DNA of 64,000 bases from a virus: positions 62,001-126,000 of the IMG/VR virus record IMGVR_UViG_3300020153_000001; one strand, given 5' to 3'. The translations under genes were made by a program, and so were the position numbers. Position 1 is the stretch's first letter, and each line of letters opens with the position of its first letter. Shown here in pieces: positions 11,480 through 41,634 of the stretch. The notes beneath the pieces were generated by a model, which ran no database searches, was not told where the DNA came from, and saw nothing but the letters and a program-made list of their open reading frames with translations.

Positions 11480-11530
11480 TTCGACTCCTTTCTAAAAAGG
11501 GAAAGAAAAATATGGCCTGATACAAAAAAG

Positions 11531-11890
11531 TGGAGGCGGCGGGAATCGAACCCGCGTCCCGCGGCGGCCTTCGGATAGGCCTGGTACGTGCGTAGTCGGT
11601 TTTTGAATTTCGCCAGCCGGGGCCCAACCGACAGGGCCATCTCGACGGCTAGCCGGCCTTGAAGTTTAATCTTGGGCCAAACCGGCGCCGACCCAAGACG
11701 AGCCGGAATTGCCGACCGGTTTTCGGGCCTCTCCGGCAAAAGCCCTCAACCGGGCTGCCTATCGACTAAGCAGCAATCGCGAGCGGCTGCTCGGCGTGTA
11801 ATTTTGCAGTCGGCTTTTAACGTGGCCAGCCGACCAACCACGGCACGGTGCCTATCGCCAGAGCCGTCCGGTCGAATCCAATTCGCCCCC
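11531..11890 (-). ncRNA. ssrA: Transfer-messenger RNA (tmRNA)
   Basis: On the minus strand the 5-prime end reads GGGGGCGAATTGGATTCGAC, the classic tmRNA start. The 3-prime end has T arm GCGGG-TTCGATT-CCCGC and CGCCTCC plus discriminator A. The 7-bp acceptor GGGGGCG/CGCCTCC includes a G3-U70 pair, the alanine identity. A tag frame (11766-11807) reads AKLHAEQPLAIAA then TAG. CCA is not encoded; T6 follows immediately. The length of about 360 bases is normal. It would rescue stalled ribosomes and tag the product. Confidence 0.95.
11766..11807 (-). CDS. tmRNA tag reading frame
   Basis: Resume codon GCA followed by 12 codons and TAG, encoding AKLHAEQPLAIAA. The hydrophobic AIAA end resembles the ALAA degron recognised by ClpXP-type proteases. 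Confidence 0.85.
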   Translation of the reverse strand, partial: AKLHAEQPLAIAA

Positions 11891-12051: not shown

Positions 12052-12261
12052 TACAATGGCCGACTCTGGGAACGCACACAGCCGATTTGCCTCTGCGAGA
12101 AAAGCTCGCACACTGGCCCACTTGTTCAGTTGCGCCCAGCGATCTCCATCAACGCGTAGGTCGAGGATGTACGTCGTAATATCGCTGAGTGCCTCAGAGA
12201 TCAGATGGCTTGCGAGCGCACGTCTGTCTTTAGGTGACAATATATTATGCTCCTCTGACAC
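12040..12261 (-). CDS. Hypothetical protein, 73 aa (possibly truncated)
   Basis: Starts at a GTG (SEEHNILSPKDRRALASHLI), overlapping the end of the radical SAM gene by 17 bases, with GAGG upstream. It is helical and charged and ends AFPESAIVSLW. The frame below it may be its displaced C-terminus. Function unknown; last gene of the modification cluster. Confidence 0.5.
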   Translation of the reverse strand: MSEEHNILSPKDRRALASHLISEALSDITTYILDLRVDGDRWAQLNKWASVRAFLAEANRLCAFPESAIVSLW

Positions 12262-13015
12262 GATAAGGTACCTCTTGATGCTGTCGGTTTCTATAAGCTT
12301 CCCATTTTTCTGAAGATCTCAGCCACGTTTCAGACATTAATATACCATATTTTTTCTTACAACTACTAGCAAACTTTTTGTCGAGTCCCAGCGTGCAACC
12401 ACAATGAGAACATAACTTTCTTTGATGCTCGACGATAAAGTCTGGGTCGAATAGATCACTCAAGTTCGGTGTTCTGGCACCAAGCCCTAAAACGGCATCT
12501 AAAGCACCGCCTATACAGCAGAACGTATAGCCTACAGAGTCCAAGGAAATCCCACACCTACCCGGATTACAGGAACACAAATAGCACGGTTCCCGCGTAA
12601 TACCTAAATCGATTGGCGCTACACAATAATCTAATATGCTATGGACGATACTATACCTTTGTGGTGCGTTACCTAACACGACTCCCTTGGCCAGAGCCCA
12701 ACTTAACAATAGTTGCGAGTCTTGGGTGGCGCCGTTTGTGAAAACGTAGACTTCATTGAAATGTTTAAGCCCAAGATCGACAAAATTGAGAAAGTCAGGA
12801 TGAAGCGTTGGCTCCCCACCAAGAATAATGACCGTATGGAATCCATACTTTGGAGCTTCTTCGCAACACTTCTTAGCGTCATCTAATGTCATATCCGGTG
12901 TATGTGTGTCGTTAAGAAACGCAAAACGATTACAACCAACGCATCGTAGATTGCACTTATACGTGATATGCCATTCAACTTTGCCGCTTTTTGGTCTGTA
13001 GTCTTTGGTATTCAT
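12245..13015 (-). CDS. Radical SAM enzyme A
   Basis: A 256-residue protein. WHITYKCNLRCVGCNRF near residues 15-31 contains the C-x3-C-x2-C cluster motif that binds the [4Fe-4S] of radical SAM enzymes. It is followed by ILGGEPTLHPDFL, the GGE SAM-binding motif. More Cys pairs occur later (CYLCSCNPGRCG, CCIGG, CSHCGC) and could hold an auxiliary cluster. Such enzymes use a 5-prime-deoxyadenosyl radical to modify peptides, sugars or nucleotides. It is a clear paralogue of the next gene and overlaps it by 41 bases. The substrate is probably linked to the adjacent glycosylation genes, by context only. Confidence 0.85.
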   Translation of the reverse strand: MNTKDYRPKSGKVEWHITYKCNLRCVGCNRFAFLNDTHTPDMTLDDAKKCCEEAPKYGFHTVIILGGEPTLHPDFLNFVDLGLKHFNEVYVFTNGATQDSQLLLSWALAKGVVLGNAPQRYSIVHSILDYCVAPIDLGITREPCYLCSCNPGRCGISLDSVGYTFCCIGGALDAVLGLGARTPNLSDLFDPDFIVEHQRKLCSHCGCTLGLDKKFASSCKKKYGILMSETWLRSSEKWEAYRNRQHQEVPYRVRGA

Positions 13016-13748
13016 ATCTGCTCGCCTTTAACCAGGAATCGGACAGGTAAATCCTATCGACTAGATGCAGCATTGACTTTTGAACCTTCTTATCTAGTCC
13101 CATGAACGCGCCGCAACGCTTGCATAACTGTTCCGTCTGCCATCTAGCAAAGTCTGGGTCGAACAGATCGGCTAACTTTTTCGTCCTTACATTAAGGCTT
13201 CTTAATGAATCGATAACACCTCCGATGCAACACACAGTATAACCTAGGCTATCTACCGAAAAACCACAACCCCAACCTGAACATCCCGAATGCCAGTCGC
13301 ACGGTGTTGTTCTATTTATCCCAAAGTCAGACGGATCTATAAATGTGTCTTTCACAAATGCTCGATAAAACGCCTTGATATTCTTCTTAAAAGAACCGCG
13401 GTCTATAAGAGCCCCTTTTGATTCAGCCCAAGCAAGAATATAATGCGTTGCCTCTGTAAAGCCGTTAGAAACAATCTTTATACGTGCAACGTGCGGATGT
13501 AGGCGATCAACGAAATTCAATATATCTGGGTGCAATGTCGGCTCGCCACCTAGTAACACTATTGTGAACCTTTTTCCCAACGCTAGCATTTGCTCGATAA
13601 ACGAGTCAACATCTCGCATTGTCATATCGGGGACAGGAATATCAGCAATAGAGAGGCCTCTATTGCAGCCCGGACAACGTAGATTACATCGATACGTTAT
13701 ATGGAACTCGGCCGCGTTATTCTTTGGTGTATAGTCTGGCGCTGTCAT
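12975..13748 (-). CDS. Radical SAM enzyme B (paralogue of A)
   Basis: A 257-residue protein with FHITYRCNLRCPGCNRG as the cluster motif and LLGGEPTLHPDIL as the GGE motif. Later Cys groups are CDWHSGCSGWGCG, CCIGG and CKRCGA. It aligns with enzyme A through most of its length (DSLGYTVCCIGG versus DSVGYTFCCIGG). Its start overlaps the stop of the upstream glycosyltransferase in an ATGA, so translation is coupled. Tandem paralogues in a phage are unusual. Confidence 0.85.
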   Translation of the reverse strand: MTAPDYTPKNNAAEFHITYRCNLRCPGCNRGLSIADIPVPDMTMRDVDSFIEQMLALGKRFTIVLLGGEPTLHPDILNFVDRLHPHVARIKIVSNGFTEATHYILAWAESKGALIDRGSFKKNIKAFYRAFVKDTFIDPSDFGINRTTPCDWHSGCSGWGCGFSVDSLGYTVCCIGGVIDSLRSLNVRTKKLADLFDPDFARWQTEQLCKRCGAFMGLDKKVQKSMLHLVDRIYLSDSWLKASRYEYQRLQTKKRQS

Positions 13749-33875: not shown

Positions 33876-35243
33876 TCATTTCCTTTTTAAGTGCGGAAAT
33901 AGGTCGTCTAGCATAACATATTGTACCCAGTCTGGAATCTGCCAGTGATCCGGCTTTGTTATAACCGCAATAACCTTCGTCGTTTTCGGCTCTTCGCCCC
34001 ACGGCGTCCAACCGTCTGTGAATACAATAAGGTAATCTAGGGGTTTGCCCTGATTCATCTCCTCGATCTGCTTTATCATTTTACCCACGTCCGTGCCGCC
34101 TTCGCCTATTAGAATAGGCTTTTGGCCTCGGCATAGTTTCTGCACACTATTGACGTCGGTATCGCCGGAATAGAACATGATCTCGCTATATTTATCGTTT
34201 CTTACAAACGCGTTTACGCATTGAATGCACATGCGAAGCTCGTGTTCAAGCTCCATACTTCCAGATGTGTCAATGAGTACCCCTACACGAGCGTAGTTAC
34301 CTGTATATGGCGGAATGACATAGCCCATTCTATATTGTTCAACGTACTGTCTGCGGCGTACTCGTGTAATGTCGAGATTCGATGACCCGCTCTTATGAGA
34401 CATTCGCCTTGCGTCGGTAAGTAATTTAATGAGCTTTCCTATACTCGCGTTACAACCAAATTCTTCTAGTTCTCTAAGTACGTTACCCCTTGACGTACCG
34501 CGCTGCAAGTGCATAATGGTCTCCCTTGCTATATCTATTAAGTTGGAGACCGTCTGTTGAGATGGGGCCGCATTGGTATCGCTCTCCCATGGTTGAGGCT
34601 GCCCGTGCACGGCGGAACCGGCGTGAGCACGAATAATGTCTTCATCTATATTACCGCCAGACTTGGTGTTACTTACACCATTAGAACATTCTGAGGCGTT
34701 GCCTGACTCACCGGTATTGGACTGATCGTCCGCCGATCTTATCTTGTCCTTTATCTCCTGAAGCTTTCTATATAGATCGTTTAGTCTATTCTGTGCCTCT
34801 TTTGGTAGCTGGTCGATGCTTGACGACGACAATCTACTAACATAGTCCTCTACGGTAAGACCGTAAGGTAGGCCATAAAAGATAGGGTCAATAAGAAAAC
34901 GCTTAGCAAAGTCGTGTGATAAAGCTCCGAGGTCCTTCATGAACGAATATAGCGCCATCCTTGCAGCTATTGTCCATGTTTCTGGAGAACAAACCTTAAA
35001 CTGTTCATATCTGTCAGCGTGGTGCAATACAAGATGGAACATGTCCCTGATAATGAAGAACGGCAGAAGGAGGATATCCTCTTCTGTGACACGACGGTCG
35101 ACGTACATTACCATACGCTTTGATAGCCCAGCTACTGGGAGCATTGGATGATCGACAACGACAATTGGCATTTCCATAATCATCTCTTTTAGATACGGGA
35201 ACTTACTGGCTGCTTGTAGCTTGGCAACAGCAAAGTCTTCCAT
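33876..35243 (-). CDS. VWA-domain protein partnered with MoxR ATPase
   Basis: A 455-residue protein; start at 35243 (MEDFAVAKLQAASKFPYLKE) with AAGGAG. The C-terminal 180 residues are a VWA domain: ARVGVLIDTSGSMELEHEL supplies the MIDAS DxSGS, then GEGGTDVG and VFTDGWTPWG. The N-terminal part has FHLVLHHADRYEQF, reminiscent of the metallopeptidase-like domain found with VWA in DUF2201-type proteins, though the usual Glu is missing. Such proteins work with MoxR AAA+ ATPases in remodelling or metal insertion. It follows the ATPase gene by 10 bases. Confidence 0.85.
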   Translation of the reverse strand: MEDFAVAKLQAASKFPYLKEMIMEMPIVVVDHPMLPVAGLSKRMVMYVDRRVTEEDILLLPFFIIRDMFHLVLHHADRYEQFKVCSPETWTIAARMALYSFMKDLGALSHDFAKRFLIDPIFYGLPYGLTVEDYVSRLSSSSIDQLPKEAQNRLNDLYRKLQEIKDKIRSADDQSNTGESGNASECSNGVSNTKSGGNIDEDIIRAHAGSAVHGQPQPWESDTNAAPSQQTVSNLIDIARETIMHLQRGTSRGNVLRELEEFGCNASIGKLIKLLTDARRMSHKSGSSNLDITRVRRRQYVEQYRMGYVIPPYTGNYARVGVLIDTSGSMELEHELRMCIQCVNAFVRNDKYSEIMFYSGDTDVNSVQKLCRGQKPILIGEGGTDVGKMIKQIEEMNQGKPLDYLIVFTDGWTPWGEEPKTTKVIAVITKPDHWQIPDWVQYVMLDDLFPHLKRK

Positions 35244-35253
35244 ATCGGTCTCC

Positions 35254-36363
35254 TTACATTGCGCTACGAAGTTTTGTTGCAAGCGGCATGATAAGTGATA
35301 CGATATCAGGCGGTAATACAAGGTCGGGCTTTCTGCGATGCAATAAATGCACCATCAAGGCCGAGAATTCGCCGTGCCCGTTATGATATAGCTCTTCAAT
35401 AAGATTAAACACACCGCGGCATTCTTCGCTGTTCTCTAGATCAACAGCGGCACAGGCTGACCCGACAATGATATATAGCTGATCCAACCGGTACCCTCTT
35501 AATACCTTAAGCCCTTTTGCGGCTTTCTGAATCAATTCCTTAACATCTGGCAGATCTAACTGTTCGAGATATTCACAGAATGCCCCGGCTGCTTGTTTGC
35601 CGACACAACCGCTCGCGATACGGAAGATATTTTCCTTATAGATACCAGCGGCTTTAGCGCCGGCAAGCGCCCGACGCGCCAGATCCCATGACCGGCGCGT
35701 AGGAACGGGCTGATTTGTCATGCCCTTGACGTCCTTTGCAGCGAATGTGATGAACTGATGCGACGTCTTAAGAAAACCGCTGATGTAGCCGCCAATCTCA
35801 GGCAGATATTTGCTCCAATCCTCCTTCGATATTTTCGGGACGCTTGGAACCTCAATATCAAAGCTCATATCAGGTGAGATCATGTGGGTCATCCACCTAT
35901 CATCGTCAGGCTGCCAGTCGAAGCAGCATACACGTGTAATAAATGGAATAGAGAATAGTGACGAGTTTGTGCCGGTTTCGACAGGGTTACCGGCGAGAAC
36001 GAACCACGTGTGATCTGGGATTTTATAGGCTCCAACGCGGCGATGGGACAGAATTGTCAGCATTCGCAATTGATATGACTCGTCAAGTCCAGACGCCTCG
36101 TCAAAGAAGATAATCGACGGTTCTGAGCTAGCTACCTGTACCCACTCTGGAGGGGTATATTTCATGACGCCTTCTTTAATATCGATATATGGCAGACCCG
36201 TTACTTCGATGGGGTCACCCTGATGGACAATAGCACTATAGCACCGTCGCCCGAGTTTCTTGGCAACGAGCTCGATAGACGTTGTTTTTCCGCTCCCAGC
36301 AGGACCGCACAGATAGATAGGAACACCGGTCTGCATAACAACGAACGGCGTACTGTCAAACAT
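35254..36363 (-). CDS. MoxR-type AAA+ ATPase
   Basis: A 369-residue protein. Walker A is YLCGPAGSGKTTSIEL (residues 17-32), Walker B is PSIIFFDEASGLDE and sensor 1 is FVLAGNPVETGTNSS. These identify the MoxR/CobS-like AAA+ family, which forms rings and remodels partner complexes, usually with a VWA protein, as here. CobS-like genes occur in many large phages. AAGGAG precedes the ATG, and the gene overlaps the 117-residue gene by 8 bases. Confidence 0.88.
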   Translation of the reverse strand: MFDSTPFVVMQTGVPIYLCGPAGSGKTTSIELVAKKLGRRCYSAIVHQGDPIEVTGLPYIDIKEGVMKYTPPEWVQVASSEPSIIFFDEASGLDESYQLRMLTILSHRRVGAYKIPDHTWFVLAGNPVETGTNSSLFSIPFITRVCCFDWQPDDDRWMTHMISPDMSFDIEVPSVPKISKEDWSKYLPEIGGYISGFLKTSHQFITFAAKDVKGMTNQPVPTRRSWDLARRALAGAKAAGIYKENIFRIASGCVGKQAAGAFCEYLEQLDLPDVKELIQKAAKGLKVLRGYRLDQLYIIVGSACAAVDLENSEECRGVFNLIEELYHNGHGEFSALMVHLLHRRKPDLVLPPDIVSLIMPLATKLRSAM

Positions 36364-36709
36364 TCGCAGTCTCCTTAGTTAAAGGGGTTTCTACTAGCCG
36401 CAACAGAACGTAGTTTCGGTTGGCAGCTTCGGGGTCGCAGTGTGGTAACTCTTTATGAATGTTCTCTATGTGAATGCTATATTTCTTGTCGTCGTACTTA
36501 AGCTCCAGCACATCTCCTATCTTTCGAGTTGTGACAATAATAGAATACTTTCTTGGTGGTTTCTTATGACCAGGGTATAAAAGCTCGATCTCGCGCCAGA
36601 ATTGCAGTCGAAGGCTGACTCTAGATCTAGTCATTTTCTTAACAGAAAATGTAATAGGAGGGCTAGCCACATAGAGCTTAGCCTTCTGGTAAAGGACGAG
36701 TAATTCCAT
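36356..36709 (-). CDS. Hypothetical protein between RT and MoxR, 117 aa
   Basis: Start at 36709 (MELLVLYQKAKLYVASPPIT) with GGAGC 8 bases upstream. It is basic in the middle (KKMTRSRVSLRLQF, GHKKPPRKYSII) and could bind nucleic acid. It begins 4 bases after the RT stop and overlaps the ATPase start, so it is co-translated with both. No family was recognised. Confidence 0.75.
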   Translation of the reverse strand: MELLVLYQKAKLYVASPPITFSVKKMTRSRVSLRLQFWREIELLYPGHKKPPRKYSIIVTTRKIGDVLELKYDDKKYSIHIENIHKELPHCDPEAANRNYVLLRLVETPLTKETANV

Positions 36710-36713
36710 CTTG

Positions 36714-37679
36714 TTAGCTCCACGCCCCAAAGGTTGTCGAGATCGTCGATTTTGCCCATTCTTCGTTCTTCCTTTCTACAAACTTCTTCCACGATAAAAG
36801 TCCTTTTGTCTGATTTGATTCGGGGTAAAACTTCATCATAAATCGAAGTCTACGCTTAACAGCTCTCGTAATATGACAACCGTGTTCGTCCACGGCTAGG
36901 CCAAGGATGTGTTTGCGACCCTCTTTCACGTCTTGTAATTTTACCTTACACAAGGAGAACTCTTTTAGACATTCTTTGAGATAATTTAGCACCTCATCCG
37001 CCATACTCTTGTCGTTAAATGAGAAGACCATATCGTCTGCATACCGCGTGTATACGACATTATTACGCATCGCCCATTGCCATATGCGTATATCATTTTC
37101 TAGAAACGCGAAATTAGACAGAATGGGACTTGTTGGGAATCCTTGGGGAAGCGCTAACGAGCTTGCAAAATTGTATGGCGGACTAAACGTTCTATTTTCA
37201 AAATCGTATGGCGAGATAAATTTGTTATCTGCAAAATCGAACGATAGCGGTGATAGAAGTGGCCTCCTTATCAGTTCAAATGAAAATTTTCGCATAACGT
37301 TGTGGTAATTCTCAACAGCGCGGCTCAGCTTGCAATTGTGGAAGAAATCTACGATATCTACGGACAGGCTATACCTACAGCCACAGTGGGGTATCGCGGC
37401 GTCGACGACATTACCGCCAATCGTAAAACCGTATACGGGGATATTTTTGTATCTTCGCGTTTGCACAAAATGCTTGTAATTGCGAGTAAGCTGTCGCGCA
37501 ATTTTTCTCATTATTTTTCTCTGTGCTTTGTCGGGAATAAAAATTAATCGAATCCTGCCGTCCGGCTTTTTAATCTCCCGTCTATAAATATTTCCGCCTG
37601 GCAGCTTGTAATATCTCAACCGTAGTGAGTTGTCCCTAATAATAACAACACGCTCTGGCACCTCGTAAACTTTTCCCAT
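36714..37679 (-). CDS. Reverse transcriptase, retron-like
   Basis: A 321-residue RT, the length of retron RTs. The fingers carry KKPDGRIRLIFIPDKAQRKI. Motif A is SLSVDIVDFFHNC, motif B ALPQGFPTSPILSNFAF and motif C VVYTRYADDMVFSF with the catalytic YADD. The thumb has ILGLAVDEHGCHITRAVKRR. The TSP in motif B argues against a diversity-generating RT, which usually has SQ there. The retron-typical VTG and NAxxH motifs are not clearly present (LGL replaces VTG). AAAGGAC precedes the ATG. Upstream lies a 1-kb field of structured DNA including a retron-like module. Confidence 0.88.
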   Translation of the reverse strand: MGKVYEVPERVVIIRDNSLRLRYYKLPGGNIYRREIKKPDGRIRLIFIPDKAQRKIMRKIARQLTRNYKHFVQTRRYKNIPVYGFTIGGNVVDAAIPHCGCRYSLSVDIVDFFHNCKLSRAVENYHNVMRKFSFELIRRPLLSPLSFDFADNKFISPYDFENRTFSPPYNFASSLALPQGFPTSPILSNFAFLENDIRIWQWAMRNNVVYTRYADDMVFSFNDKSMADEVLNYLKECLKEFSLCKVKLQDVKEGRKHILGLAVDEHGCHITRAVKRRLRFMMKFYPESNQTKGLLSWKKFVERKNEEWAKSTISTTFGAWS

Positions 37680-37718
37680 AACAGTCCTTTCAGGCGCAGC
37701 GGCAACTGAACAAAAAAT

Positions 37719-37882
37719 GGGCGGCCGCCGTCGAGGGGGGTATCGGTGCTGTGGACGGCTTTAGCCGGGCCACAGTAATACCGATGCCTACCTGACAGAC
37801 CTGGTTTTTTTTAGCTCGGGTCTCCGGTCGGGTCATCAACCAGCCGAGCGCACCGAGCGAATAAATGCACGGCGGCCGCCCT
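37719..37882 (-). ncRNA. Closed structured module A (nearest the RT gene)
   Basis: GGGCGGCCGCCGT (37720-37732) pairs with ACGGCGGCCGCCC (37869-37881). Inside, ATCGGT/ACCGAT stacks on CTGTGG/CCACAG around CGGCTTTAGCCG, and a second hairpin uses CTCGG/CCGAG. On the minus strand the closing stem is followed by ATTTTTTG, so it may end as a terminator 40 bases before the RT start. Confidence 0.6.
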
Positions 37883-37896
37883 TTTACCGTTTAGAT

Positions 37897-37916
37897 TTTT
37901 GACTCCGGAGTCAAAA
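37897..37916. repeat. 20-bp palindrome, copy 14
   Basis: Between structured modules A and E, about 220 bp upstream of the RT gene. Confidence 0.95.
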
Positions 37917-37929
37917 ACTTACGCCACGA

Positions 37930-38054
37930 CAAAACCCTGCGGTTGCAATAAGTGTATCAGCAGGGTCCGGCGCAGATAGCCACCGCCCCTAGGAACTAGA
38001 ATGGTGTGCCGGCGGCAGAACCGTTCTGCCGAACTACCGGCGGCGCCAGACCCT
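37930..38054 (-). ncRNA. Closed structured module E
   Basis: GGGTCCGGCGC pairs with GCGCCAGACCC (38044-38054) with one G-U. Inside, GCCGG/CCGGC encloses GGCAGAA-CCG-TTCTGCC, and CACC/GGTG forms another arm. A neighbouring hairpin ACCCTGC/GCAGGGT shares bases with the outer stem, so two folds compete. Confidence 0.5.
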
Positions 38055-38108
38055 TATCGACTAAAAAATAGTAATCTGATGAAGGCTAAATATTTTTGTT
38101 AATATATT

Positions 38109-38270
38109 CTGCCGCGCTAGCCAGTCCGTATCGAACGGATAACTAGAACTGCGAAGCGAAGCAACCGCTGCAGCGAGCAAGTTCTAGTTAGTCCTGTGTT
38201 CTAGGGCATTTTTTCGCCGATCATTCGTTCGTACGTCGGCGACACGCATACGGACTGGCTAGCGCGGCAG
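38109..38270 (-). ncRNA. Retron-like module D (a1-msr-msd-a2 arrangement)
   Basis: A perfect 23-bp inverted repeat (38109-38131 with 38248-38270; arms begin CTGCCGCGCTAGCCAGTCCG). Read on the minus strand, the same strand as the RT, the order is: arm a1, a 7-bp hairpin TCGCCGA/TCGGCGA, a single-stranded AAAAAATGCCCTAGAACACA, a long hairpin based on AACTAGAACT/AGTTCTAGTT with GGA/TCC, then arm a2. This is the layout of a retron RNA. The gap to the RT (430 bases) is longer than usual. Confidence 0.6.
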
Positions 38271-38408
38271 GGCGGACGGGTCAATATGCTGCTATCGTAT
38301 GGGATTTAGCCGGCTCCGGGCTAACTCTCATAACCACGCAGGATTTACGCCGGGCTCGTGCCCGGCGTCAGGCATAGCAGCTGCGTTGTAAACAATTCGT
38401 CCGCCCTG
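38268..38408 (-). ncRNA. Closed structured module B
   Basis: CAGGGCGGACG (38269-38279) pairs with CGTCCGCCCTG (38398-38408). Inside is CTGCTAT/ATAGCAG, then hairpins TTAGCC-GGCTCCG-GGCTAA and CGCCGGGC-TCGT-GCCCGGCG, a cloverleaf-like fold. It abuts module D. TATATA lies just upstream on the minus strand. Confidence 0.55.
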
Positions 38409-38458
38409 TAGCTTATATATCAAAGCAACCTCGCATTAAACAGAGGATTAGTTGCTAA

Positions 38459-38515
38459 TAAAAAACGCCAGCGGGGTTTTATGGCCGCTGGCGACTGACC
38501 AGCGTCAGGCTGGTC
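38459..38515 (-). terminator. Double hairpin terminator after module C
   Basis: On the minus strand CTGACCAG-CCTGACG-CTGGTCAG is followed by CGCCAGCGG/CCGCTGGCG and TTTTTTATT. Strong signal for the end of the module C transcript. Confidence 0.85.
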
Positions 38516-38521
38516 AGATTG

Positions 38522-38721
38522 TGCCGACATCGCTGCGAAAACTTCCTTACGAGGCGATGGCCGAGACGTTCACCCGTCGAGGCCGAGCCGAGTGAGCCGA
38601 AGTTTTACCAGCCATCCACCTTGGTTTTCGCCGGTCGGTTAAACCGGCGTCAAGCATGTCGGCTTTTCGGCCTAAAAGGCCGATAGATAAAAAAACAAAT
38701 GGAGACCATTAAATTGGTCCC
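38522..38721 (-). ncRNA. Closed structured module C with hairpin leader
   Basis: From the inferred start at 38721, the minus strand gives a leader hairpin GGACCA/TGGTCC followed by a T7-containing stretch, then GCCGACAT (38656-38663) pairing with ATGTCGGC (38523-38530). Inside are AAAACTTC/GAAGTTTT and GCCGG/CCGGC. The unit ends at the double terminator. No credible frame. Confidence 0.6.
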
Positions 38722-38756
38722 CAATATTAAATGCCGGTGTTTTCAAAAAATATTCA
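38722..38756 (-). promoter_or_regulatory. Cassette promoter element (module C)
   Basis: The minus strand reads TTTTGAAAACACCGGCATTT, then AATATT. Inferred start G at 38721. It places the RNA array in the same promoter class as the accessory units. Confidence 0.55.
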
Positions 38757-38763
38757 GGGATAA

Positions 38764-39372
38764 CTAAGTCTCCGGCCGCTTAAATACAGCATCGACGTTT
38801 TTTAGACTCCAAACACCCCTCTTGTTTTTACGAGCCTGTTCCTCTTCGCTTTTCCACCATTTGCCCGTGCATCTAGCTAACCCTTCTTTTACCAATTGCT
38901 GCTGCACGCACTGGCCATATTCGTTATACACGACACCGCAGTCGTCCGGTTCTCCTTTGATTTGCTTTACGAATATACGCTGTCCAGCCACAAGTTTATT
39001 GAGTGCCCGCCTTGCTTCGTCGCCAAACGGAGCTTCAATAGCCGGTGTTTCAATACCGGAGAGGTATATTCTGTCGCGCAATAGTATGGCTCTTTTGATA
39101 AGAATTGTTCTCCCGTTTACAGCCCTGATAGCGTCGACATAATATTCATTTACGAAAACGTCGTCTGAACTATCGGGCGCGCAGCTAAAGCTTAGTATGG
39201 AAAGGCTTATCGCTATTGCGGTTGCAGTACTAAATCCGATGACGAATTCAGGATGTTCGTTGACCATATATTTCATACCCTCATAAATGCAATTAAAAAA
39301 CAGAGCCAATAAGCTAAATAACGTCCTTAGTATGGATAGCAGAATGCTGAGAATGGACTGCACTATCGTCAT
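38764..39372 (-). CDS. Membrane-anchored staphylococcal-nuclease-like protein
   Basis: A 202-residue protein. Two N-terminal hydrophobic stretches (SILSILLSILRTLFSLLALF and VIGFSTATAIAISLSILSF) anchor it. Residues 75-195 follow the SNase fold (RIYLSGIETPAIEAPFGDEA, LVAGQRIFVKQI, SEEEQARKNKRGVW). The arginines expected before the L-x-GI turn and in the D-x-Y-GR turn are replaced (IYLSGI, DDCGVVYNE), so nuclease activity may be lost. It could be a binding or structural relic, or an exclusion factor. Confidence 0.75.
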   Translation of the reverse strand: MTIVQSILSILLSILRTLFSLLALFFNCIYEGMKYMVNEHPEFVIGFSTATAIAISLSILSFSCAPDSSDDVFVNEYYVDAIRAVNGRTILIKRAILLRDRIYLSGIETPAIEAPFGDEARRALNKLVAGQRIFVKQIKGEPDDCGVVYNEYGQCVQQQLVKEGLARCTGKWWKSEEEQARKNKRGVWSLKNVDAVFKRPET

Positions 39373-40480: not shown

Positions 40481-40865
40481 ACAGCGACCTCGTAGGAGCC
40501 CTGATATTAACTGCAAATACGTTTTTAAGAAGCATCGACGCAACACCGTAACACGCTATCAGCACGGCACTGAAAAACTGAGACGATGGGAATAACGACG
40601 ACACGGCGGTCAGTACGGCAATAACCATCAATATAGCACCATTAATAATATATTTATTCCTCCAGATAGGGCCTTCGTCTTCCTTTTTAGCCTGATACCA
40701 CCCATGTCTCCATGACCAATATTCCGGCGTACCAAATTTATATGGATTGTCTTCTTCTCCTATCTTTTCTCGATAAGAAAAGAAACCCTCCATAAACGGT
40801 TGGGACGTCTGCAAAGTCTTATGAAGATTTTTTGCGCTTACGAGCTCGAACTTTTTTATCTCCAT
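40440..40865 (-). CDS. Two-helix membrane protein with RMF/CrpP-like motif
   Basis: A 141-residue protein. NPYKFGTPEYWSWRHGWYQA (residues 40-59) is like the NPY...W..GW motif of small RMF/CrpP-type proteins. Two hydrophobic helices follow (INGAILMVIAVLTAVSSLF, FFSAVLIACYGVASMLL), then a charged tail. The combination of this motif with membrane anchors is not one I recognise. Function unknown. Confidence 0.7.
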   Translation of the reverse strand: MEIKKFELVSAKNLHKTLQTSQPFMEGFFSYREKIGEEDNPYKFGTPEYWSWRHGWYQAKKEDEGPIWRNKYIINGAILMVIAVLTAVSSLFPSSQFFSAVLIACYGVASMLLKNVFAVNIRAPTRSLYESEQKNDREKED

Positions 40866-41634
40866 TCTGTTCGCCCTTAGCGCTAAAAGTGGTCACTCGG
40901 ATGGCCCAAGCGTCGACACCATATCGTGTATTGAAGTAGGTTTCTGGAATGTAGCAAATGCCGCCTTTGCCCCACCTTTCGCTCCACGAATTCTGCGTCT
41001 CGACCCACCAACGGTCTCTATATTTCTTTAAACCAACTCCAAGCATTGCATGAAGCCCGACAACGTTACTAACTCGCTCTGGTACGAATCCGTCTTTGGT
41101 TACACTTTCAACAAATCCTCTCGTAACAGGTATCCCGAAAGACACGGCAAACCCGGATAGTATCGCAGAGCAAATTTCGTCGAAGCTTGTACAATCATAG
41201 CTCTCAGTTATACGATACTTTTTCGCTTCTTCTTTCCAGTTTCTAGGCCATCGGCTAGGTCGCCACTCATAGTGCGATATAAGCGATACAGGGCAGCAGC
41301 CGACGTTGGTGAGCGCCGTAATAGACCTGTCAAGCGTCGATCCGCCATCGACGCCACCGTTGATTTGGCCATACAAGCTACCTATGGACAGTTCAACGTC
41401 GCTCAAACCTGTCTGTATCCGACACAGCATAACAGCAGCAACACCTGACGCGGCCACACAGCTTCCTTGACCGTCTTGGTCTAGGATTCGCGGGATATAG
41501 TGCGACAAAGAAAAGTCATGCCACTGGTCACGAGGGATAACTGGCATGACCTCAGAGTAGATAGGACTTACTTCGCCGTAGGCAACGGTACGAGGCAATA
41601 AGCCAAAATGAAAGCCTTTATAGCTATCAGCCAT
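40819..41634 (-). CDS. Papain-like (C1 family) cysteine protease
   Basis: A 271-residue protein. ILDQDGQGSCVAASGVAAVM has the oxyanion Gln and catalytic Cys, VVGLHAMLGVGL the His, and WWVETQNSWSERWGKGG the Asn followed by the usual W-G-x-x-G. All key residues of a C1 protease are present. No signal peptide or clear propeptide. In a phage it may process virion proteins or attack host proteins; context gives no target. The C-terminus is very basic. Confidence 0.88.
   Translation of the reverse strand: MADSYKGFHFGLLPRTVAYGEVSPIYSEVMPVIPRDQWHDFSLSHYIPRILDQDGQGSCVAASGVAAVMLCRIQTGLSDVELSIGSLYGQINGGVDGGSTLDRSITALTNVGCCPVSLISHYEWRPSRWPRNWKEEAKKYRITESYDCTSFDEICSAILSGFAVSFGIPVTRGFVESVTKDGFVPERVSNVVGLHAMLGVGLKKYRDRWWVETQNSWSERWGKGGICYIPETYFNTRYGVDAWAIRVTTFSAKGEQNGDKKVRARKRKKSS

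Follow-up and report, generated by a model that had tools for sequence, protein, structure and literature searches.

Retrons usually comprise one reverse transcriptase, one noncoding RNA and an effector. The RNA normally adjoins its reverse transcriptase, and the phiR73 retron is an example of one carried by a prophage. The stem formed by the complementary ends of a retron RNA contains the priming guanosine or ends just before it, and validated exceptions to the (T)AGC priming context are known, e.g. ACGC and CAGA (PMC6868368). The NAXXH motif of region X and the VTG motif of region Y each occur in 14 of 16 validated retrons, and validated retrons with a substitution in one of these motifs are on record (PMC6868368). 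In Retron-Nex1 (Ne160) of Nannocystis exedens several duplicated msr/msd repeats are found, with no reverse transcriptase within a kilobase (PMC6868368). The locus described here lies in a window of 64 kb, the whole stretch of DNA that was analysed, from the 135.5-kb virus record IMGVR_UViG_3300020153_000001. It probably represents a divergent retron of a phage, with a single reverse transcriptase that uses at least four different msr-msd-type RNAs, encoded in tandem, as its templates (Table 1).

Table 1. Features of the locus in the window and of the array in its relative (coordinates beginning with L002); in boundary motifs a slash marks the inner end of an arm
Feature	Coordinates	Strand	Description
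Small protein	36356..36709	-	Directly 3' of the reverse transcriptase gene; ATG 5 nt past its stop
Retron-like reverse transcriptase	36714..37679	-	321 amino acids, YADD; profile and fold matches
E5	37719..37881	-	a1/a2 13 bp, boundary T/GC..CG/A, interior 137 nt; then T-run; nearest the reverse transcriptase
Palindrome copy TTTTTGACTCCGGAGTCAAAAA	37896..37917		Directly upstream of E5 and the reverse transcriptase; counterpart in relative precedes whole array and reverse transcriptase
E4	37962..38054	-	12-bp arms, without T/GC..CG/A boundary
E3 (element of the first-pass annotation)	38109..38270	-	a1/a2 23 bp, boundary T/GC..CG/A, interior 116 nt
E2	38288..38381	-	Inner a1/a2 8 bp, boundary T/GC..CG/A, interior 78 nt
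E1	38523..38663	-	a1/a2 8 bp, boundary T/GC..CG/A, interior 125 nt
SNase-domain protein	38764..39372	-	Hydrophobic N-terminal segment; upstream of array, syntenic in both phages
U1	L002 7666-7826		Relative, upstream of reverse transcriptase; T/GC..CG/A boundary
U2	L002 7854-8030		Relative, upstream of reverse transcriptase; T/GC..CG/A boundary
U3	L002 8045-8297		Relative, upstream of reverse transcriptase; arms about 50 bp; T/GC..CG/A boundary
U4	L002 8293-8459		Relative, upstream of reverse transcriptase; without T/GC..CG/A boundary
U5	L002 8486-8668		Relative, upstream of reverse transcriptase; T/GC..CG/A boundary

The window contains genes for a terminase, baseplate, a UvsX-like protein and a ligase, as well as tRNAs and a phage-encoded tmRNA gene (11530-11890, minus strand; predicted tag AEQPLAIAA). 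A scan with the neighbouring ATPase gene yielded the sole relative found, the 144-kb record IMGVR_UViG_3300031950_000001 (G001). Its reverse transcriptase is syntenic, has the same neighbours, and is 57% identical to that of the window over a MAFFT alignment (59% in the genome search); the flanking ATPases are 73% identical. Single-protein scans of viral and genome contigs gave no further relatives of the reverse transcriptase, alignment scans for close relatives returned G001 alone or nothing, and a DNA pattern scan for the unit of the relative returned G001 only.

A first-pass annotation of the window had pointed to a retron-sized reverse transcriptase with YADD and a TSP-type motif B at position 36714, and the 321-residue reading frame found there indeed carries YTRYADD and LPQGFPTSP. 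The protein matches Pfam RVT_1 (PF00078) at 7e-18. Its best PADLOC model is RT_III-A with 120 bits, and it scores 116 bits with the NCBIfam profile of retron St85, under the cut-off of 235. Lower scores were obtained with the profiles of group II maturase (51 bits, cut-off 300), Drt2 (44 bits, cut-off 390) and Drt3a (25 bits, cut-off 200), and a group II intron RNA was not among the Rfam matches of the window. Typical phage retron reverse transcriptases (n=3) reach about 200-280 bits on their own best models, of which the present enzyme attains about half. The best matches by sequence in the PDB are the retron reverse transcriptases of Kva2, Ec86 and Ec78. An AF2 model with a pLDDT of 83 retrieved retron reverse transcriptases as the ten best folds of the PDB, followed by DRT2 as the eleventh. 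The NAXXH motif is altered to AAIPH in the window and to AVLPH in the relative. The first reading had also noted the lack of a clear VTG, rightly so, since this position reads HILG (ILG) in the window and RLLG (LLG) in the relative. As validated retrons with altered NAXXH or VTG exist, loss of these motifs weakens membership of the retrons without excluding it. In a phylogenetic tree the two enzymes form a fully supported pair inside no sampled or named retron clade, on a long branch with the reverse transcriptase of another locus, L046, beside the group II introns (90/88). This grouping of the pair and L046 with group II introns is possibly due to long-branch attraction. The enzyme is treated as a divergent retron-like reverse transcriptase by profile and fold.

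The altered NAXXH and VTG, the position outside sampled retron clades and the eleventh rank of DRT2 would also suit a system of the DRT/UG type rather than a retron. In such a system the reverse transcriptase would bind several structured RNAs and prime in another way, e.g. from a protein or by rolling circle, and the units would serve as cofactors or as templates, with no 2'-5' branched msDNA as product. This explanation is considered unlikely, as the retron profile scores 116 bits versus 44 for Drt2, the ten best folds are all retron enzymes, and the layout of the units described below, an arm and then a G, is retron-like.

Upstream of the reverse transcriptase gene lies an intergenic gap of about 1.08 kb (37680-38763) with dense predicted folding, where the sole open reading frame of at least 50 amino acids is a 55-residue antisense frame. 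Folding pieces of this gap yielded five closed elements, E1-E5. E3 had already been described in the first reading as closed by perfect arms of 23 bp. These arms (38109-38131 and 38248-38270, 23 nt each) are 100% complementary and stand 116 nt apart in an element of 162 nt. The proposed succession of one short hairpin, a single-stranded run and a long hairpin was also recovered, 5' to 3' on the strand of the reverse transcriptase, with an A-rich run. The distance noted between this element and the reverse transcriptase is real, but it is not empty, as E4 and E5 fill it. The same boundary motif recurs in E1, E2 and E5 in this gap, so the coordinates first given cover part of the system only. 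The proposal of a retron-like unit thus held for the combination of a reverse transcriptase with an a1-msr-msd-a2 shaped RNA, since retron profiles and folds rank first, the stem is followed by a G and the pattern recurs in the relative; what had to be given up is the single unit, which is replaced by a tandem array of distinct ones.

In E1, E2, E3 and E5 the last base of the a1 helix is a T with GC directly after it, and CG precedes a2, which begins with A. The individual boundaries are CAT/GC..CG/ATG in E1, TAT/GC..CG/ATA in both E2 and E3, and CGT/GC..CG/ACG in E5; the arms of the four units differ in sequence with their complementarity kept. E2 is nested within an 11-bp outer stem (38268-38278 and 38398-38408). 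E4 is either a degenerate unit or a different structured element. With the arms enforced, the units fold in the order of arms, about 5-6 nt, a 5' hairpin, an A-rich stretch, a long 3' hairpin and arms again. E5 has an extra small hairpin in the stretch of about 5-6 nt after a1, and in some units a small hairpin stands ahead of the long 3' hairpin. Rfam gave nothing relevant at or below the gathering threshold. Altogether 8 units, 4 in the window and 4 in the relative, share T/GC..CG/A at the inner ends of their arms (8-23 bp), and in all 8 the closing stem ends immediately 5' of the G, which is the layout of retrons. The priming context is TGC in the units, not the usual (T)AGC.

Within the relative, U1 and U2 are 94% identical in the first 54 nt inside the arms, the rest being without similarity in blastn, and U2 and U5 are 85% identical throughout. 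An alignment of units of the relative showed constant ends and a constant 5' hairpin with a variable middle, the tips of the 3' hairpins being different, and RNAalifold found 43 pairs in it, of which 4 have both partners changed. A blastn comparison of unit interiors from the two phages gave no significant similarity; sequence turnover has affected the array, while the flanking genes are still recognisable. Promoter-like sites are slightly more frequent in the array region of the relative than in shuffles, and local promoters and terminators in the window region are not above shuffles. The relative contains a borderline tRNA-like sequence (L002 6760-6825) and an extra 218-residue open reading frame (L002 6913-7569) between the SNase gene and the array, in the place that E1-E3 occupy in the window.

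Only one of the RNAs, probably E5 as the nearest to the reverse transcriptase, might work as a retron RNA, the others being decayed duplicates or remnants of past units. This would agree with the usual adjacency of retron RNA and reverse transcriptase, with the boundary being absent from E4 and U4, and with the palindrome-marked start common to E5 and the reverse transcriptase. The duplicated msr/msd repeats without a nearby reverse transcriptase in Retron-Nex1 are a precedent (PMC6868368). Such decay is nevertheless held to be a little less likely still than a DRT/UG-type system, because E1, E2 and E3 have perfectly paired, different arms and the full boundary, and the relative also has four intact units. 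That the units are several templates for one reverse transcriptase is the part of the array reading in which there is most confidence.

The palindrome copy in front of E5 belongs to a repeated near-perfect palindrome, TTTTGACTCCGGAGTCAAAA, which the 135-kb record contains 30 times and the window 18 times, in many cases shortly before a gene start. The copies in the window are at 1186, 3783, 4938, 5332, 7131, 7986, 9064, 9562, 15436, 23948, 27291, 28663, 30546, 37898, 44952, 51009, 55141 and 62367. The relative has more than 30 copies of a variant palindrome, TTTGATTCCGGAATCAAA. The palindrome looks like a phage-wide regulatory element, and transcription may start near it. As E1-E3 are located upstream of the palindrome, another start or read-through would be needed for them.

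Hairpins are frequent in phage intergenic regions and T-runs follow several of the units, so that terminators, attenuators or mobile palindromes standing in front of a reverse transcriptase gene by chance have to be considered as well. The boundary with arms of at least 8 bp was searched for in the two phages, about 280 kb in all, on either strand. This gave 15 matches, the 8 array units and 7 others, compared with a mean of 8.0 in Markov shuffles. The 7 others all have 8-bp arms, and one that was inspected lies inside a gene; outside the arrays the boundary motif is at chance level. For the gap in the window, dinucleotide shuffles led to an expectation of 0.005 boundary units versus 4 observed, and its antisense strand has none. 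Of stems of at least 12 bp with 60-230 nt between the arms the gap has 3, and its dinucleotide shuffles had 0.01 on average. As the motif was picked by eye in the units on which it is tested, the test is not independent for the whole set; a motif taken from the units of the relative alone would still predict the four of the window. Ordinary phage structures are regarded as very improbable, since in both phages the boundary-matched units form a cluster nowhere but upstream of the reverse transcriptase, on the same strand as its gene, blastn detected no further copies of them in either genome, and their interiors, at 78-157 nt, by far exceed the loop of a terminator.

A survey was made of 97 distinct phage reverse transcriptase loci with at least 800 nt upstream, including that of the relative. 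The maximal number of non-overlapping stems with one common boundary was 1 at 82 loci and 2 at 13; a single locus reached 3, and the relative alone reached 4. An array of this kind is thus absent from the 96 other phage retron-like loci. Locus L151 has three AT-rich stems of 8 bp with ATA/TTT as their common boundary, which were judged to be due to chance, and nothing convincing was seen upstream of the reverse transcriptases of L046 or L017. A similar scan found single stems with the inner boundary AGA/AGT close upstream of several retron-type reverse transcriptases of 562-613 amino acids, and this recovery serves as a positive control for the scan. CAGA is the known priming context of Ec67 (PMC6868368).

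Two neighbouring proteins are candidate associates of the reverse transcriptase by their position: the SNase-domain protein and the small protein encoded directly behind the reverse transcriptase. The latter is 43% identical to its counterpart in the relative, with synteny in both phages, and has a confident, beta-rich predicted structure; profile and fold searches assigned it to no recognisable family. An idea taken from its sequence, that it could be a CsrA-like RNA-binding partner of the reverse transcriptase, obtained no support from profile or fold. An AAA ATPase and a DUF2201 VWA-like protein, a pair of the MoxR/VWA type, are encoded directly downstream of the reverse transcriptase operon (33876-36363, minus strand). 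Elsewhere on the minus strand of the window are two adjacent radical-SAM proteins, QueE-like by PHROGs (12245-13748), and a papain-family cysteine protease (Peptidase_C1; 40819-41634). Among the neighbour genes scanned none belongs to a known effector family. A resolvase match is found in the relative only, and neither phage record has a match to a tyrosine integrase, so that a defence role carried by a prophage suggests itself less readily here than for the phiR73 retron and other retrons of prophages.

The occurrence of the array in the relative as well suggests that, in the course of infection, a single enzyme produces a whole series of small DNAs. Each transcribed unit RNA would fold via its paired ends a1 and a2, and the G directly after a1 would be the priming G. 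The reverse transcriptase would then copy the 3' hairpin, beginning at the G just 5' of a2 in the CG that precedes this arm, and would stop near the A-rich run. The predicted product is one branched msDNA species per unit, with differing hairpin tips. An idea that unit interiors might act as donor or antisense sequences was not supported: comparison with the rest of the phages gave only insignificant matches of 12-22 nt, a result that argues against a role as templates with which the phage would be edited. A tentative view, given less than even chances, is that of a natural multiplexed retron, whose reverse transcriptase would make a library of different msDNAs in the infected cell from a cassette array that is itself evolving. 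Arms and 5' hairpin would be constant and the 3' tips interchangeable, with host defences or rival phages selecting for their replacement. Somewhat more doubtful than this view is the guess that a set of msDNA-RNPs is made in infection as decoys or sensors against nucleases of the host or of competitors; this function is the weakest step of the main reading, a retron with several templates. Further weak points of the main reading are a basis of two phages only, the missing boundary in U4 and E4, and the lack of a recognised effector among the neighbours scanned.

To our knowledge, the production of several small DNAs by one reverse transcriptase is otherwise a feature of engineered retrons. 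Should the units be copied, one phage reverse transcriptase would make several small DNAs, the array would show which parts of the template must be kept and which are exchangeable, and the question would be raised why a phage needs many of them. In the open-access literature no report was found of a phage reverse transcriptase directly behind an array of diverged templates, and a search there for natural multi-template retrons yielded Retron-Nex1 alone, as a partial precedent. Its locus likewise contains several repeats of msr/msd type; unlike there, the present array stands directly before its reverse transcriptase, in a phage, and its units differ strongly from one another. The DRT2 and DRT9 antiviral systems also combine a reverse transcriptase of related fold with a structured noncoding RNA. 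Their enzymes are larger, however, DRT profile and fold scores are lower for the present one, and we know of no a1/a2-then-G layout in them. With the bacterial retrons (Ec86, Ec67, the Ec78/St85 family and Kva2) the locus shares the profile and fold of the reverse transcriptase, an RNA upstream of it on the same strand that is closed by its own ends, the G right after a1, and a 5' hairpin followed by a long 3' hairpin. It differs from them in the TGC instead of AGC context, in the altered NAXXH and VTG, in having no known effector, in being carried by a large phage in which no tyrosine integrase was recognised, and in the several diverged RNAs per reverse transcriptase. Compared with the retrons normally described, what stands out is that one reverse transcriptase apparently serves a number of diverged templates and that its host genome is that of a large phage, not of a bacterium.
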